Shown in pieces: positions 121 to 40,798 of a DNA stretch of 40,798 nt. Source of the stretch: a virus. The notes under the pieces are model-generated. The model worked only from the letters and a program-made list of their open reading frames with translations, was not told the DNA's origin and ran no database searches. Made by a program: the position numbers and the translations under genes. Each line of letters opens with the position of its first letter. The stretch's first letter is position 1. Location: the IMG/VR virus record IMGVR_UViG_3300021076_000208, positions 1 to 40,798 of that record; one strand, given 5' to 3'.

Positions 121-528
121 ATGCCCATTGCAATTCCCTCCGTTGGAACGCCCGCTTATCGCTACGCCCTCAACTGGACGCCATCTTACAGCCAAAAGCT
201 GGCCTGGCGGCTGAAAAAACTTGCTGCCTGGGTCGCCGAAGTAACCTTCGGATGTTCCCACCGGCACATCACCCTCCCCTTCGACGATCACCAAACCTGC
301 CTGGATTGCGGCGCCACCCGCCTCTACATCTTCAATACCGAGATGTGGCTGGGCGGCGTCACGGATGCCCCGATCTTCATCGGACGCTGGAAAAAGGCCG
401 CTTGCCCCGGAATCGTCAAGCAAATCTCCGCCATCGACGCCGCCAACGCCCTGCGCGCCGAGAATGACCGCCAATGGGCCGCCATGGAAGCCGGCGAAGC
501 AATCGGCGCAGAGGCGGTGCGGGGATGA
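121..528 (+). CDS. Small zinc-ribbon-like protein, first gene of the early operon
   Basis: This 135-residue protein has no function I can name. A Shine-Dalgarno AAGGAG stands 7 nt before the ATG. The N-terminal third is basic and aromatic. A probable zinc site follows at residues 45-63 (C45, H47 or H49, then C60-x2-C63), in the form of a short CxxC ribbon. I associate similar CLDCG-type small proteins with Acidobacteriota, from memory only. The stop overlaps the next start by 4 bp (ATGA), so the two are translationally coupled. As the first gene after attL it is the one most exposed to read-through from tRNA-Val. Confidence 0.75.
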   Translation: MPIAIPSVGTPAYRYALNWTPSYSQKLAWRLKKLAAWVAEVTFGCSHRHITLPFDDHQTCLDCGATRLYIFNTEMWLGGVTDAPIFIGRWKKAACPGIVKQISAIDAANALRAENDRQWAAMEAGEAIGAEAVRG

Positions 529-1154
529 AATACAGCCAGGCACTCAAAGGCATGTGGTGCGGGGCTTCCAAAGAAGAAAGCCGCTACACCCTGCGCGCGG
601 TCTATATCGACGCTGAGAAGAAAGCCGCCGTCGTGACCGATGGCCACTTGCTTGCCGTCATGGATGTTTCCGATCTCCTGGAACCCGAGGAAAAATCCTT
701 CCTCGTCCCGGTCGATGCTCTTCGGGCTGCGGACGCTCTGTTTGTTAAGTTCAAACCCCGCACCGCGAAAGCCAAGGCACCCGATGTTTTCATTCGCGCC
801 GCCGAGGATTCCATCACCGTGTCGGTGGGCGGTTCGCGCCGCGCTCAATCGTTCGACAAGATGCACGGCCAGTTCCCGCAATGGGCTGCGGTGTTTCCGA
901 AAGAAGTTGAGAAGTACACCACTTCTATCTTCCTTTCCGAAGAGTTGCTTCTCTCTCTTGCAAAATCGCTTGCCGGGACCGAGAAGCGGAGCACCGGAAT
1001 CTGCCTCTCGGTCTGCGACGACAAATCGGTCATTCTCGTATCCCGCCAAAGCTCAATCACGAGTGGCCGGAAGAGTTGCGGCCTGCTCATGCCAATGCGC
1101 GACTATTCAGGCGCGAAGGCCACCGCGTTCTGGAATCAGGCGGTGCAAGCATGA
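525..1154 (+). CDS. Two-domain mini sliding clamp (DnaN-like)
   Basis: This 209-residue protein looks like domains 2 and 3 of a bacterial beta clamp without domain 1. The segment AAVVTDGHLLAVMDV (about residues 29-43) matches the domain 2 signature seen as MVSTDGH in the full clamp at 3779-4930. QFPQWAAVFPKE matches the inter-domain FPxxxxVxP segment, and the C terminus GLLMPMRDY matches the terminal VMPMRL of DnaN. Bacterial clamps are about 370 residues with three domains. A two-domain protomer of this size is closer in architecture to PCNA, which closes as a trimer. A role as a replication or transcription clamp is inferred from these matches. The start at 525 is chosen for the ATGA overlap with the gene before. 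Confidence 0.7.
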   Translation: MKYSQALKGMWCGASKEESRYTLRAVYIDAEKKAAVVTDGHLLAVMDVSDLLEPEEKSFLVPVDALRAADALFVKFKPRTAKAKAPDVFIRAAEDSITVSVGGSRRAQSFDKMHGQFPQWAAVFPKEVEKYTTSIFLSEELLLSLAKSLAGTEKRSTGICLSVCDDKSVILVSRQSSITSGRKSCGLLMPMRDYSGAKATAFWNQAVQA

Positions 1155-1543
1155 CCACCGTCCGAGCGCACATCCGCAACGCTTCGCACACCGCCGCCTT
1201 GGGCCGCAATCCGCTTCAAGCCGATCTCCTCGGCGGCCTGAACAACTTCGCGCCGGCCATCTTCGGCGATACCTTCGAGCCGGAAGTGGACGGCGAACGG
1301 CTCACGTCCCAGCAAAAGCGCGTCGATGCCCTGATGGCCGATGGGCAATGGCGCACACTCCCCAAGATCATTGCCGATCTCCGCAAGCTCTACCCCGGCA
1401 CACACTACGGCGAAGCCTCGATCAGCGCCCGGCTGCGGGATATGCGCCGCGTCGGTTGGAAGATCGAGCGCGTCCGCTCCAATCCCACAAGTGGCCTGTA
1501 TTTGTATCGCGCAGTCAAGGTGATGGAAGCGGAGGCCGCGTAA
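1151..1543 (+). CDS. Winged-helix DNA-binding protein
   Basis: A 130-residue protein whose start gives a 4-bp ATGA overlap with the mini-clamp gene. Residues about 50-125 read as a winged helix: LTSQQKRVDALMADGQW, a helix-turn-helix with recognition helix near ASISARLRDMRRVGW, and a wing closing with SGLYLYRAV. This layout is common in small phage early proteins that bind DNA, as regulators or as replication accessories. The specific role is not visible. The stop overlaps the next start by one base (TAATG). Confidence 0.7.
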   Translation: MTTVRAHIRNASHTAALGRNPLQADLLGGLNNFAPAIFGDTFEPEVDGERLTSQQKRVDALMADGQWRTLPKIIADLRKLYPGTHYGEASISARLRDMRRVGWKIERVRSNPTSGLYLYRAVKVMEAEAA

Positions 1544-3778: not shown

Positions 3779-4930
3779 ATGGAAGCAGTTTTGGAAAAGA
3801 CGGAAGTAGAATCCGCTCCGATGAAAGCGGCGATCAGTCTGGTTCATCTGCAACACGCGCTCAAGGTTGTGGAACCGGCGATCCCGCGCGGCAATGCAAC
3901 AATCCCGGTGTTGCAATCGGTACGCATCGAGCAGTTGCCCGAGGGCCTGGCCATCGAGACCACCGACCTCACACTGGCGATTCGCGCGTTGTGTCCGGAG
4001 ACGAGCGGATTGCCGCGTCCGGTTGTGATCCCGGCGGACAGGTTCCTGAGTTGGGTGAAGCTGTTGGCCGGCGACGATGTGAAACTCAGCGCCACGGACC
4101 GCCGCGCCACGATGCACTGCGGACGCACGAAGGCCACGCTGCCGATTCTCACGGCCTCGGCATGGCCCGATAACCGCATCTTCAAACTGGACAACGAAGG
4201 CATCACGCTCAAGCAGGGCGACCTGGCCCGCGCTCTGCGCTTCGCCTCGATCACGGTTGGCACCGAAGAGCGGTATGCGCTGAACGGTGTGCTCCTGATG
4301 GGCGACGGCACGACGCTGCGGATGGTCTCGACGGACGGCCATTGCATGACGATCTATGCGATGCCCTGCACGGAGAAGATCACGCTGCTCTTGCCCGCGC
4401 GGCTTATCAAAGCTCTGTTGCCGCTGTTGGTTGGCGACGATGACGGCATTGACCTGGCCTTCAATGAATCGATGATCCTGGCCAGCGTGGCCGCCGAGAC
4501 TCCGGTATTTGTGTCATGCCGCAAGATCACCGGGGCCTTTCCAAGCTGGGAGCAAGTGTTGCCGAAAGAGAAGCGGCTCGAAGTGAGCGCCAGTGTGCGC
4601 GACTTCCTGTTGAGCCTTGAGCGTTGCGTGTTGTTGAGCAATGCGGAGACCTCAGCGGTCGCGGTGACCTTCGGCGAACAAATCGTGATCGAGAGTTCCG
4701 ATCCCCAGGCCGGCGAAGCGACGGAGACGGTGGATTGCGTCGGCTCACCGAAAGAGCCGTTGCGGGTGGGCGTGAATGCCGGTTACCTGATTCAACTTCT
4801 CAAGCGCCTGGAAGGCGACGTGCGCATTGCGCTGCCGAAGACGAACCAATCCCCGCTTCTCTTCAAAGCCACGCCGAAGGACGGCGAAACGCTGGATTAC
4901 ATTGTGATGCCGTTGCGGCTGGAGAAGTGA
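3779..4930 (+). CDS. dnaN: DNA polymerase III beta subunit (sliding clamp)
   Basis: At 383 residues this is a full-length, three-domain bacterial beta clamp. Diagnostic segments are ATIPVLQSVRIEQ (domain 1), YALNGVLLM and VSTDGHCMTIYAM (domain 2), FPSWEQVLPKE (start of domain 3) and the terminal YIVMPLRLEK. The clamp encircles DNA and tethers the host polymerase and other partners. The N terminus has an extra 14 residues before MKAAISL, so a start at 3821 is possible, but 3779 has an AAAGAAAGG ribosome site. No phage polymerase is encoded, so the clamp must recruit host enzymes or phage proteins such as the QLNLF protein at 6741-7235. Confidence 0.95.
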   Translation: MEAVLEKTEVESAPMKAAISLVHLQHALKVVEPAIPRGNATIPVLQSVRIEQLPEGLAIETTDLTLAIRALCPETSGLPRPVVIPADRFLSWVKLLAGDDVKLSATDRRATMHCGRTKATLPILTASAWPDNRIFKLDNEGITLKQGDLARALRFASITVGTEERYALNGVLLMGDGTTLRMVSTDGHCMTIYAMPCTEKITLLLPARLIKALLPLLVGDDDGIDLAFNESMILASVAAETPVFVSCRKITGAFPSWEQVLPKEKRLEVSASVRDFLLSLERCVLLSNAETSAVAVTFGEQIVIESSDPQAGEATETVDCVGSPKEPLRVGVNAGYLIQLLKRLEGDVRIALPKTNQSPLLFKATPKDGETLDYIVMPLRLEK

Positions 4931-6740: not shown

Positions 6741-7235
6741 ATGGCACAGCAATCCAAGTTAGACGTGAGCAAGTGGCAGGCGGACAGGCCGCATTGGAAT
6801 TACACGCCTGCGATGCAGTTCTATGTTCGGTTCATCCAGGTTGCGCTGATCGATGCGAACTGCGATCTGGCCATCTTTCCGGAATCGCGCGGTGTGCTGC
6901 AGGCCATGCCCGCGCCGGGCGCGAAGCCAACGGACAGGCCCACGGATGCTGCGTTGCTGGCCCGCGATTGGATTGCATGTTCGGAGCCGGGATCGGTATC
7001 CAAGCGCCGGTTCGTGAGCTTCCCGGAGTGCTGTGAGCAGTTGGGGATCGATGCAAACGCCGAGCGCGTGGCGCTGTTGAACGCAATCGATCAGGCCGGG
7101 GACTTTGACAACAATGAGGCGTGGGATCGGCTTGAGGCGGTGAGCGCCACCGAGCCGCAAGACGATGACGAGCCGCTGTTCGAGGCATGGCGCATTGTGC
7201 CCGCGCTCGACCAGTTGAACCTTTTTGCAGCGTGA
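6741..7235 (+). CDS. Early protein with C-terminal clamp-binding motif QLNLF
   Basis: A 164-residue protein with no family I recognise. It ends in LDQLNLFAA. QLNLF at residues 158-162 fits the pentapeptide QL(S/D)LF that docks proteins into the hydrophobic pocket of the beta clamp, and it sits at an accessible C terminus as in many clamp partners. With two clamp-like proteins in the same operon, a clamp partner or adaptor role is a reasonable inference. The middle (AALLARDWIACSEPGSVSKRRF) is helical. It begins 3 bp after the loader candidate. Confidence 0.6.
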   Translation: MAQQSKLDVSKWQADRPHWNYTPAMQFYVRFIQVALIDANCDLAIFPESRGVLQAMPAPGAKPTDRPTDAALLARDWIACSEPGSVSKRRFVSFPECCEQLGIDANAERVALLNAIDQAGDFDNNEAWDRLEAVSATEPQDDDEPLFEAWRIVPALDQLNLFAA

Positions 7236-10669: not shown

Positions 10670-11902
10670 GTGAAAACCGCTTCGCGTACACATTCTGCAT
10701 ACATGGGCACTCTGAAACCCTTGAAAGTTGCGGATATTGAGGCGTTGAGGCCCAAAGAGCGCCGATACACGGTCTCAGATGGGCGCGGGCTGTGTTTGGA
10801 GATACAGCCGAGCGGAACTTTGAGTTGGCTGTATCGCTACACGCTGGCCGGAAGGCAGGCGAACGTCTACCTGGGCCACTATCCCGCCGTGAATGCTGAG
10901 AAGGCGCGGAAAAAGCGGGATGAGTTGGCCGCGGCCATCGCAAAAGGTGAGTCGCCTGCGGATGTGAAACGCCGCGCGAAGATTGGCAAGCTCAAGAAAT
11001 CAACCGTTAAAGACTTTGGAGAGCGTTACTTGCGCGAGATTGTGGCAGAGGATCGACAAAGCCCTGCCGATGTGCGGCGGTATCTTGAGCGCGACGTGTA
11101 TCCAACGCTGGGACACTTGCCGCTGGCTTCGATTCATGCCGATCACGTTCGGGAGATTGTGTTTGCGCGCAAGGCGAAGGGGCGCAGATCTGCGGCGCTG
11201 GCTATCCGCAACGTAATCAAGCGGATGTGCGATTACGCCATTGTTTGCGGGGTGATCGAGAGCAATCCGGCCCATGCGATTCCGCCGAAGTACATTGCCG
11301 AACAAGTGAAACGCGACCGGGCGCTGAGTGAAGCGGAGATCGGCGTGTTTCTGCGGGCGTTGGATGCGGCGCCGATTGCGAAGCGGTACAAGATCGCTTT
11401 GGAATTGATTCTGTTGACGTTAGTTCGCAAGAGCGCGTTGCGGTTGGCCGATTGGACAGAGTTCGATTTCGGGTTGGGTGAATGGTCGATCCCCAAAGAA
11501 CACGACAAGATGGGCCAGGGCCAGATTGTCTACCTGAGCAGGCAGGCAACGGCGCTGGTTGAGCGCCTGGCAGCGCCCGAAGAGCGCGTTGGATGCGTGT
11601 TGCCTGCGATCAATGGCAAGTGGGCTGCTATCTCCAAAAGCACACTGAATAAACAACTTGCAAGAGTGTCAGTGAGAATACCTCACTTCACTGTTCATGA
11701 CTTGAGACGGACTGCAACCACCCGTTTAAGCGAGATGCACTGGGATGAGAAGTGGATTGAGAAGTGTTTGAACCATAAGACGGCGGGGGTGAAGCGCATC
11801 TACAACCGGGCCGAATACGCCGAGGATCGCAAGCGGATGCTACAGGCATGGGCCGATCATGTTGATTCTTTGCGGGGTTTTCCCGATGTGAGGCAGGTTT
11901 GA
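10670..11902 (+). CDS. P4-type tyrosine integrase (internal, second integrase)
   Basis: A 410-residue tyrosine recombinase of the P4 class. It has the N-terminal DUF4102-like arm-binding domain (RYTVSDGRGLCLEIQPSGT, LGHYPAVNAEKAR), a core-binding domain (SPADVRRYLERDVYPTLG) and a catalytic domain with R253 (LTLVRKSALRL), H343-x2-R346 (VHDLRR), H369 (CLNHKT) and Tyr378 (RIYNRAEY). All key residues are present. The start is uncertain: GTG 10670 or ATG 10703, the latter closer to the family N terminus. Its place between the early and packaging modules, far from both att sites, is odd because another integrase gene lies next to attR. Confidence 0.93.
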   Translation: MKTASRTHSAYMGTLKPLKVADIEALRPKERRYTVSDGRGLCLEIQPSGTLSWLYRYTLAGRQANVYLGHYPAVNAEKARKKRDELAAAIAKGESPADVKRRAKIGKLKKSTVKDFGERYLREIVAEDRQSPADVRRYLERDVYPTLGHLPLASIHADHVREIVFARKAKGRRSAALAIRNVIKRMCDYAIVCGVIESNPAHAIPPKYIAEQVKRDRALSEAEIGVFLRALDAAPIAKRYKIALELILLTLVRKSALRLADWTEFDFGLGEWSIPKEHDKMGQGQIVYLSRQATALVERLAAPEERVGCVLPAINGKWAAISKSTLNKQLARVSVRIPHFTVHDLRRTATTRLSEMHWDEKWIEKCLNHKTAGVKRIYNRAEYAEDRKRMLQAWADHVDSLRGFPDVRQV

Positions 11903-38663: not shown

Positions 38664-39050
38664 ATGCCCGCAGATTGCAAGACAGAGAAAGCTGTCTTTG
38701 AGGACGGCAGTACACGGTCCGTCCTCAAAGAGCGGTACGATTTAATCCCGAAAGTCGCCATGGACGCCCTCGCGCGCCGGTTGGCGTTGGGCGCCAAAAC
38801 GCATGGCGAGAACAACTGGCGGTGCGGTGGCACTGAGTTCCGCAAGGCAAGCATCAACCACCTGATGCGCCATTTGCTTGACTACATCGAACACGGCAAC
38901 GCCAACGATGACAACACGGCAGCGATCATCTGCAATGCCGCGTTCCTGTGTCACTTTGAGGCCAAAGACCCGTTCGCGGGCTGCGATCCTGTCAACGATA
39001 CACCGCCCGAACCGCCGCCTCCGTCGAACCGGAGACAGCGCGCGCGTTGA
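38664..39050 (+). CDS. dATP/dGTP diphosphohydrolase-like protein
   Basis: A 128-residue protein with RYDLIPKVAMDALARRLALGAKTHGENNW, then FRKASINHLMRHLLDYIEHG and DDNTAAIICNAAFLCHFE. The combination of RYDLIP, G-x-NW, H-x2-RH and a helical D/N-rich end matches the dATP/dGTP diphosphohydrolase N-terminal family (MazG-like all-alpha). Such proteins trim deoxynucleotide pools. AAGGAG precedes the ATG. Its last 59 bp overlap the 3' end of the integrase on the other strand. Confidence 0.75.
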   Translation: MPADCKTEKAVFEDGSTRSVLKERYDLIPKVAMDALARRLALGAKTHGENNWRCGGTEFRKASINHLMRHLLDYIEHGNANDDNTAAIICNAAFLCHFEAKDPFAGCDPVNDTPPEPPPPSNRRQRAR

Positions 39051-40281
39051 GAACCGCGGCGGTGATGGTGCGCTTTCTCGGCTTCGGCTCGATGGCCAAC
39101 ACCGCCGCATACTTCACCCGCGTCCGCTGATGCGCGTAATACTCCATCATCTTGCGTCCGACGTGCCCGGCGATTGCGATCACAGTCTCCGGGTTCACGT
39201 CGTTTTCGAGCAGCCGCGTGATGCAATGGTGCCTCAAGTCATGCGGCTTGAGATCGACGAACCCCGTCGCCTTCCGCAGCTTATCCCAACTCTTTCTGAG
39301 CCACGACCGTGACGCGGGCCGCGTGGGATCGAACTTGTTGCGCAGTTCACGAAACGGAAACAGGTAGTGTTCCGGTTCGCAGGCTCCCAGCTTGAGCGCC
39401 CGCTTGAAGCATTCTTCCACTGCATATTTCGCTTGCGCGTTCAACGGAACCTTCCTCGCCCGGTGACCGTTTTTCACGCTGTCTTCGGGAACATAGATCT
39501 CGCTGATTCCTTCGGCGCTCAGGAAGAGATTCTTGAGCCGCAGGCCGCGCAACTCAAGCCCAGCCGCCGATGTGTTGTTCGTGATGCAGGCGACCCAGTA
39601 CGCCAGCGAAGCCTCGGGGTGGCGGGATGCCACGTCGAACAGCCGCTCCTCTTCGTCTTCGGTGAGCACGGTGCGCGGCGACCATTGCTTCACCGAAAGC
39701 GGGAAGTAGAACGGGCGCACGTTCTGCCACAACCGGCAATGCGTAAGCATCTGGCCCACTACGCTGATCTCATGGTTCACAAGCATGTTCCCGGCCTTGC
39801 GCTTCCAGGGGTGCATCTCCTGGCCGCGCACACGGACCACGTTCGCAAGCCGGGCGATCTGGTAACCGCGGATGTGACCCGGCGTAATATCGCAAAGCCG
39901 CAGCGCGCCGAAGAATTTCAGGAGCGCATCGAGGTTTCCCTGAGTCGCGTCATGCGCCCGCGGCTTGAGGCTGGTGGACTGCCGTCTGAGATTCATCCAA
40001 TAAACGGCGGCATCCCGGAATAACATGGTGGCGAAGTCTACATCGACGCCTTGCAGGGCTTCGTCCTGCGCGATGCAGGCCGGGCAGTTGACGTGATCGA
40101 TGGTGTGCTGATCGGCGAATTCCAGTTCGGAGGCCGCGAAGGGCGTCCGTTCTACACGCGCACCGAGGCGGCGTGGCATCTCCAGGATAGGCAACGGCTC
40201 TCCAAGGGCAGAACTGGGTAATTCGATCAGTGAAGCAAGATCGTGCGAAGTTTCATTTTGAAATTTTTGTGGCTCAAACAT
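38992..40281 (-). CDS. Tyrosine integrase next to attR
   Basis: A 429-residue tyrosine recombinase starting at ATG 40281 with GGAG upstream; the open frame extends to 40347. A C-x2-C pair (66-69) lies in the N-terminal part. The catalytic domain shows K270 or nearby (DSVKNGHRARKVPL), H347-x2-R350 (PHDLRHH), H373 (AGHVGRKMM) and Tyr381/382 (MMEYYAHQ). The place of the first catalytic arginine (NNTSAAGLELRGL) appears to hold Ala240, with Arg245 nearby. Position beside attR makes it the likely enzyme for this prophage. Confidence 0.9.
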   Translation of the reverse strand: MFEPQKFQNETSHDLASLIELPSSALGEPLPILEMPRRLGARVERTPFAASELEFADQHTIDHVNCPACIAQDEALQGVDVDFATMLFRDAAVYWMNLRRQSTSLKPRAHDATQGNLDALLKFFGALRLCDITPGHIRGYQIARLANVVRVRGQEMHPWKRKAGNMLVNHEISVVGQMLTHCRLWQNVRPFYFPLSVKQWSPRTVLTEDEEERLFDVASRHPEASLAYWVACITNNTSAAGLELRGLRLKNLFLSAEGISEIYVPEDSVKNGHRARKVPLNAQAKYAVEECFKRALKLGACEPEHYLFPFRELRNKFDPTRPASRSWLRKSWDKLRKATGFVDLKPHDLRHHCITRLLENDVNPETVIAIAGHVGRKMMEYYAHQRTRVKYAAVLAIEPKPRKRTITAAVLNARAVSGSTEAAVRAVYR

Positions 40282-40347
40282 AATCGCTCCGTTCCATTTC
40301 GGCTCGTGATGCTGCGCACGTCTTATGCGTCTGGGGTCATCGATCAT

Positions 40348-40724: not shown

Positions 40725-40760
40725 TTAGAACGCCTGCCGATTCTGGTTAGAGCGCCTGCC
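40725..40760 (+). repeat. Imperfect direct repeat beside attR
   Basis: TTAGAACGCCTGCC (40725-40738) repeats as TTAGAGCGCCTGCC (40747-40760), 13 of 14 bases, 22 bp apart. With AGTGGTAG just before, it looks like a decayed tRNA 5' half or an extra core site in attP. The gap 40594-40743 otherwise holds no gene; integrase arm sites are possible but not identified. Confidence 0.6.
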
Positions 40761-40798
40761 TTACAAGCAGGATGTCCGGGGTTCGAGTCCCTGACCGC
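40744..40798 (+). repeat. attR core and host tRNA-Val 3' end
   Basis: The 49-bp copy of attL ends at 40792 and continues into GACCGC, which pairs perfectly with the 5' acceptor strand GCGGT of the tRNA at 9-13. This is therefore the original host 3' end, displaced by integration. The window stops inside the acceptor stem. Confidence 0.92.

Follow-up and report, generated by a model that had tools for sequence, protein, structure and literature searches.

A Putative Pocket-Only Derivative of the Bacterial Sliding Clamp Encoded in a Prophage and in a Wider Phage Family

The Mini-Clamp Gene and Its Prophage

The DNA analyzed here, referred to as the window, comprises positions 1 to 40,798 of the IMG/VR virus record IMGVR_UViG_3300021076_000208. 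A 33-bp stretch of tRNA-Val sequence is directly repeated at its two ends (positions 23-55 and 40744-40776), so that the window looks like an entire prophage inserted at tRNA-Val; it also has two integrase-like genes (10670-11902, plus strand; 38992-40347, minus strand). Close to its left end, a plus-strand gene at 525-1154 starts with ATG at 525 and has its stop codon end at 1154, encoding the 209 residues that the original prediction gave it. This protein, here called the mini-clamp, belongs to the phage family phrog_3007 and corresponds to domain 2 and the second half of domain 3 of the sliding clamp DnaN. Its gene overlaps both neighbors by ATGA, at the stop codon of an upstream gene without assigned function (121-528, plus strand, 135 residues) and at the start codon of a downstream gene (1151-1543, plus strand, 130 residues, phrog_25381) that forms the right border of the mini-clamp cassette. 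These overlaps place the gene in a tight operon, in which translation is probably coupled. The full-length clamp expected 2.6 kb downstream is indeed there (3779-4930, plus strand, 383 residues) and scores 148 bits against TIGR00663, above the cut-off of 137.65. A recent duplication of this adjacent dnaN was considered as the source of the mini-clamp and is not supported, as the two proteins share 28% identity over 113 residues and phrog_3007 matches the mini-clamp better.

Further downstream, a 164-residue protein (6741-7235, plus strand) ends in the clamp-binding motif (CBM) QLNLF (residues 158-162; 7212-7226, plus strand). It is the sole QLxLF among the 33 proteins of the window, where 0.10 would be expected. 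The protein has no match in Pfam, PHROG, NCBIfam or PADLOC; homologs with 77, 53, and 52% identity (in L116/L117, L118, and L119, respectively) end in QLALF, QIALF, and QLTMF, all of which follow the canonical pattern of the motif. By its motif it is a candidate client of the phage DnaN and/or the mini-clamp.

Comparison with the mini-clamp gene of a sister phage (L001, 492-1121) gave 58 synonymous and 16 non-synonymous changes and a dN/dS of 0.062, indicating purifying selection, and none of the 14 substitutions that separate the two proteins touches a residue of the clamp-binding pocket described below. Since the dS of 0.55 in this gene exceeds that of its neighbors (0-0.21, with none in the directly upstream gene), the mini-clamp gene was probably swapped by recombination. 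A sister prophage fragment, L116, shares with the window the tRNA-Val, the first gene, the 130-residue protein gene, a dNMPase, DnaN (54% identity), an O-like replication protein and the 164-residue protein. At positions 158-1000 of L116 the homolog of the 121-528 gene abuts the 130-residue protein gene by ATGA, leaving a clean empty site and no mini-clamp. The mini-clamp gene thus behaves as an accessory cassette. Since L116 has the operon without the mini-clamp, the full-length clamp and its neighbors do not need it, and since the 164-residue protein is likewise present there, this protein more likely serves the phage or host DnaN, while it could also bind the mini-clamp.

Homology to DnaN and Domain Architecture

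The three segments that had been singled out as DnaN-like, TDGH, FPQW-x4-FP, and GLLMPMR, are all present in the 209-residue protein, and profile searches against DnaN families show a homology to DnaN that goes beyond chance. The mini-clamp matches phrog_3007 with an E-value of 3e-15 (residues 5-194 on profile positions 8-187 of 190), the phage clamps of phrog_947 with 6e-8, TIGR00663 with 3e-6 (26.6 bits, short of the curated cut-off of 137.65) and the Pfam family DNA_pol3_beta_2 with 0.002, under the gathering score. A profile built from 39 relatives retrieves the E. coli beta clamp with an E-value of about 1e-32.

A DnaN protomer consists of six half-domain repeats and a PCNA protomer of four. 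The mini-clamp has three, both in the alignment and in the AlphaFold model, and thus neither the three domains of DnaN nor the four half-repeats of PCNA and gp45. The proposed correspondence to domains 2 and 3 held for domain 2, although its first strand is shortened, and only for the second half of domain 3. The first half-repeat of domain 2 (residues 1-52; 525-680, plus strand; D2a 22.8 bits) contains R20, L23, T38, G40, and H41, equivalent to E. coli R152, L155, T172, G174, and H175, and the second (residues 53-126; 681-902, plus strand; D2b 11.9 bits) contains P118 and V123, equivalent to P242 and V247. The lone half-repeat of domain 3 (residues 127-193; 903-1103, plus strand) ends in LLMPMR, the counterpart of V360-R365, and completes the pocket. 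It is followed by a C-terminal tail with a predicted helix at residues 196-208 (1104-1151, plus strand) that DnaN does not have. The window protein shares with a subset of mini-clamps (those of L014, L015, L018-L021, L089, and L097) a C-terminal tail in which a [PDF]xW-like motif recurs about 10 residues past MPxR.

The same architecture is found throughout the family. When module HMMs built from 11 full-length clamps were run on 45 mini-clamps, both halves of domain 2 were detected in all 45 and domain 1 in a single one, whereas the first half of domain 3 was never detected, with no score above 10 bits. The last module scored better as the second half of domain 3 in 44 of the 45, and a second independent test agrees. 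When mini-clamps are aligned with full-length clamps, two parts are absent, domain 1 and the block that lies between FPxW and the last repeat; correspondingly, the phrog_947 match of several relatives reaches about position 249 of the profile and resumes at about 314. The last module of the window protein, taken by itself, gives a weak signal (4.6 bits as the second half of domain 3 vs. -0.8), and its assignment therefore leans partly on the family. In a local alignment, the family profile had extended into the first half of domain 3 of E. coli beta; the half-domain HMMs decided in favor of the second half. With domain 2, the second half of domain 3 and the MPxR end, the window protein has the architecture of phrog_3007.

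The structure prediction of the monomer proposed at the outset supports a clamp fold (AlphaFold, pLDDT 83.9, pTM 0.80). The model consists of three repeats, each of a helix and three strands, and one further helix at the C-terminus. A relative from Shigella phage EP23 (gp08) is predicted with a pLDDT of 94.9 and a pTM of 0.90, and its model also lacks the second domain-2 repeat's helix; an inner, DNA-side helix is likewise lost in a large subgroup of mini-clamps. The top PDB matches listed by Foldseek for both models are exclusively DnaN clamps, in alignments of about 254 columns for 209 residues, which is consistent with a deleted block.

Retention of the Pocket and Loss of the Ring Interface

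In E. coli beta, the pocket that binds QLxLF motifs is formed by R152, L155, T172, G174, H175, R176, L177, P242, R246, V247, N320, Y323, V344, V360, and M362-R365 (PMC11139829). These residues fall within the segments that the mini-clamps retain. Among 39 mini-clamps, the columns conserved at 90% or more are R20, Y21, L23, T38, G40, H41, G115, P118, M189, and P190 (window numbering), and eight of these ten are pocket residues. Mean conservation is 3.31 in the pocket and 1.57 elsewhere (Mann-Whitney p 1.8e-8), and identity to E. coli beta averages 76% over the family in the pocket compared to 21% in the remainder, a contrast similar to that found in full-length clamps. By sequence, the window protein, too, retains the CBM-binding residues characteristic of DnaN: 12 of 18 pocket residues are identical to those of E. 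coli, the same number as in the DnaN of the phage itself. Its subsite I is intact except for R176 to L and R246 to A, with a leucine at V360, and its subsite II is weakened by N320 to S, Y323 to L, and V344 to K. The sampled full-length clamps are all acidic (pI 4.95-5.5) and the mini-clamps have a median pI of 8.3; this shift to a basic charge may matter for the choice of partners.

The faces that close the ring are a different matter. The E. coli dimer contacts involve I78, F106, R103, and K74/R96/R105 in domain 1 and I272, L273, and E298-E304 in domain 3 (PMC11139829), and all of these map to segments missing from the mini-clamps, which thus do not have the dimer interface residues of a DnaN. 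The DNA-contacting residues of domain 1 are also absent, and other DNA contacts are altered. Among 43 mini-clamp-bearing virus records, a full-length clamp was found only in the sister of the window phage (phrog_947 matched nothing in three of the 43, and several are fragments). Because the ring faces are missing, mini-clamp and full-length clamp rarely occur together, and L116 has the clamp alone, rings are unlikely, be they homo-oligomeric or mixed. Two of the three roles originally proposed, a homotrimeric ring and a mixed ring with DnaN, are therefore not borne out.

Family, Naming, and Distribution

The window protein is, as judged from sequence comparisons, a divergent member of a known and misnamed phage family that we reread as a pocket-only clamp. 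Searches with the Bcep781 protein (E up to 1) gave phrog_3007 relatives in at least 287 phage records, and an alignment query of IMG/VR gave 437 matches, of which the fetched ones form 42 clusters at 75%. Identity of the window protein to family members other than that of the sister phage is about 15-29%. Members are present in the E. coli K-12 phages rolling and TheodorHerzl, a scan of a genome collection gave one relative only, in a Pseudomonas contig, and no plasmid homologs were found. The window protein and that of L017 form a group outside the main clade, on long branches, but the tree test did not reject a single clade (p-AU 0.30), so that the mini-clamps may have had one or two origins.

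Phrog_3007 is labeled a RusA-like Holliday junction resolvase, a label that has also spread to phage annotations, including RefSeq records. The searches gave no support for RusA in the mini-clamp, as DNA_pol3_beta_2 is the sole Pfam match at E ≤ 1 and NCBIfam gives only dnaN; the label appears to be an error. Some records come closer, since the note on Bcep781 gp15 reads "DNA Pol III b subunit fragment" and the member from Serratia phage Eta is annotated "putative beta-clamp protein". No paper on the phrog_3007 mini-clamps was found in the literature searched, which covered few subscription journals, so that earlier work may exist. Gp48 of mycobacteriophage Waterfoul, a protein called a sliding clamp subunit, is toxic upon overexpression (PMC11797047).

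The genomic surroundings of the relatives vary. Some lie beside PolA and helicase genes, others beside cII and a replication initiator or beside an O-like initiator, DnaB or lambda P, and in EP23, Bcep781, and PSDA-2 the gene is single or one of a pair, opposite to the head genes. The first 190 of the 415 positions of phrog_12450 match the mini-clamp encoded in L009 (4992-5567). Phrog_12450 is possibly a mini-clamp fused to another half, which could reveal its function.

Proposed Role and Alternative Explanations

We infer that the mini-clamp derives from the beta clamp, of which it keeps the pocket but not the ability to form a ring, and that it acts as a soluble CBM-binding decoy and competes for the clients of the clamp, a reading to which we assign a probability of roughly 0.5. 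Domain 2 and the C-terminal strand of domain 3 still enclose the cleft in which QLxLF motifs would dock. Most likely soluble and made early, and probably monomeric, the protein would bind CBM-carrying proteins off DNA in competition with the clamp rings of the host (and of the phage), and clients drawn away in this manner could include the delta subunit of the clamp loader, DNA polymerases, and Hda. The affinity of the delta subunit for a monomeric mutant of beta is about 50 times that for the dimer (PMC11139829), so that a monomeric pocket could plausibly compete well. A decoy for clamp partners was the third of the roles first proposed and fits best among them, the pocket being what evolution kept. 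Several points speak against it. The window protein has a weakened subsite II and has lost two arginines; some phages with a mini-clamp have lambda-type O/P replication and need the polymerase III holoenzyme of the host, so that a broad decoy would be harmful; and several mini-clamps are located in replication modules, which equally suits an adaptor. Such an adaptor would hold a CBM protein (host polymerase III, the clamp loader or the 164-residue QLNLF protein of the phage) in the pocket and a phage replication protein on another surface, serving as a tether in the phage replisome. The relatives next to PolA, helicase, O-like initiator, DnaB or lambda P genes agree with this, as does the window phage with its own CBM protein and an O-like replication protein close by. 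However, neighborhoods vary, with the gene alone or paired in three of the phages named above, the CBM is rare in proteins encoded next to the mini-clamps of relatives (a linked CBM protein as a general rule was rejected on these neighborhoods), and L116 lacks a mini-clamp even though DnaN, the O-like protein, and the CBM protein are all encoded there. We regard the adaptor as a tentative second choice and the decoy as more likely.

The remaining explanations are all improbable, to different degrees. SocB and RipA, the latter part of RipAB of the Rosmer toxin-antitoxin family, target the hydrophobic pocket of DnaN (PMC12795458), and a mini-clamp carried as an accessory cassette might soak up host toxins or defenses of this type that attack the clamp pocket; PADLOC found no defense-system match for the mini-clamp or five other small proteins of the window, and we consider such a sponge unlikely. 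Little different in its chances, and if anything slightly less favored, is a true miniature clamp that forms a homo-oligomeric ring through a new interface, e.g., of four protomers. The fold is that of a clamp and the arithmetic would fit, four times three giving the 12 half-repeats of a normal ring, but none of the relatives tested has the known ring faces, the EP23 model is devoid of a domain-2 repeat helix that lies on the DNA side in known clamps, and DNA-contact residues of E. coli domain 1 are absent and others changed. It is still harder to maintain that the mini-clamp enters a mixed ring with, or poisons, the DnaN of its own phage: both genes are encoded 2.6 kb apart in the window, but only one of the 43 mini-clamp-bearing records, that of the sister phage, shows a full-length clamp, L116 has the clamp and no mini-clamp, and the faces that contact the ring are gone. 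The least credible explanation is a functionless, decaying relic of a clamp gene, which the short and divergent sequence might suggest. The excess of synonymous over non-synonymous changes (58 vs. 16) and the dN/dS of 0.06 disfavor decay, dozens of divergent phages share the architecture, and the fold of the EP23 protein is predicted with high confidence. Of all these readings, the decoy remains the one we prefer.

Relation to Known Systems and Significance

The window protein is of the same length class and architecture as the other phrog_3007 members (Bcep781 gp15, EP23 gp08 and that of Eta), but it is more divergent, weaker in subsite II and accompanied by a full-length clamp. With DnaN (TIGR00663, phrog_947) it has domain 2, the C-terminal strand, and the CBM pocket in common, whereas it lacks domain 1, the first half of domain 3, and the ring interface. 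E. coli beta*, a shorter dnaN product that is reportedly made after UV, is said to be without domain 1 and to have domain 3 in full. Both thus lack domain 1, but the mini-clamp has half of domain 3 and a gene of its own. PCNA and T4 gp45 are two-domain clamps with four half-repeats and a ring interface; like these, the mini-clamp has fewer than three domains, but it contains three half-repeats and no recognizable interface. Twort Gp168, SocB, and RipA disable clamps by binding to them (PMC11139829, PMC12795458). The mini-clamp would likewise disturb clamp function, but by mimicking the clamp and binding its clients.

If this is true, hundreds of phage genes annotated as a RusA-like resolvase or as a DNA polymerase III beta subunit would not encode a nuclease or a functional clamp, but the docking pocket of the clamp in soluble form. 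The family would then represent a naturally occurring and genetically encoded competitor for the clamp interactome, which is itself targeted in antibiotic research, and would offer a means of asking which clamp clients a phage must control.
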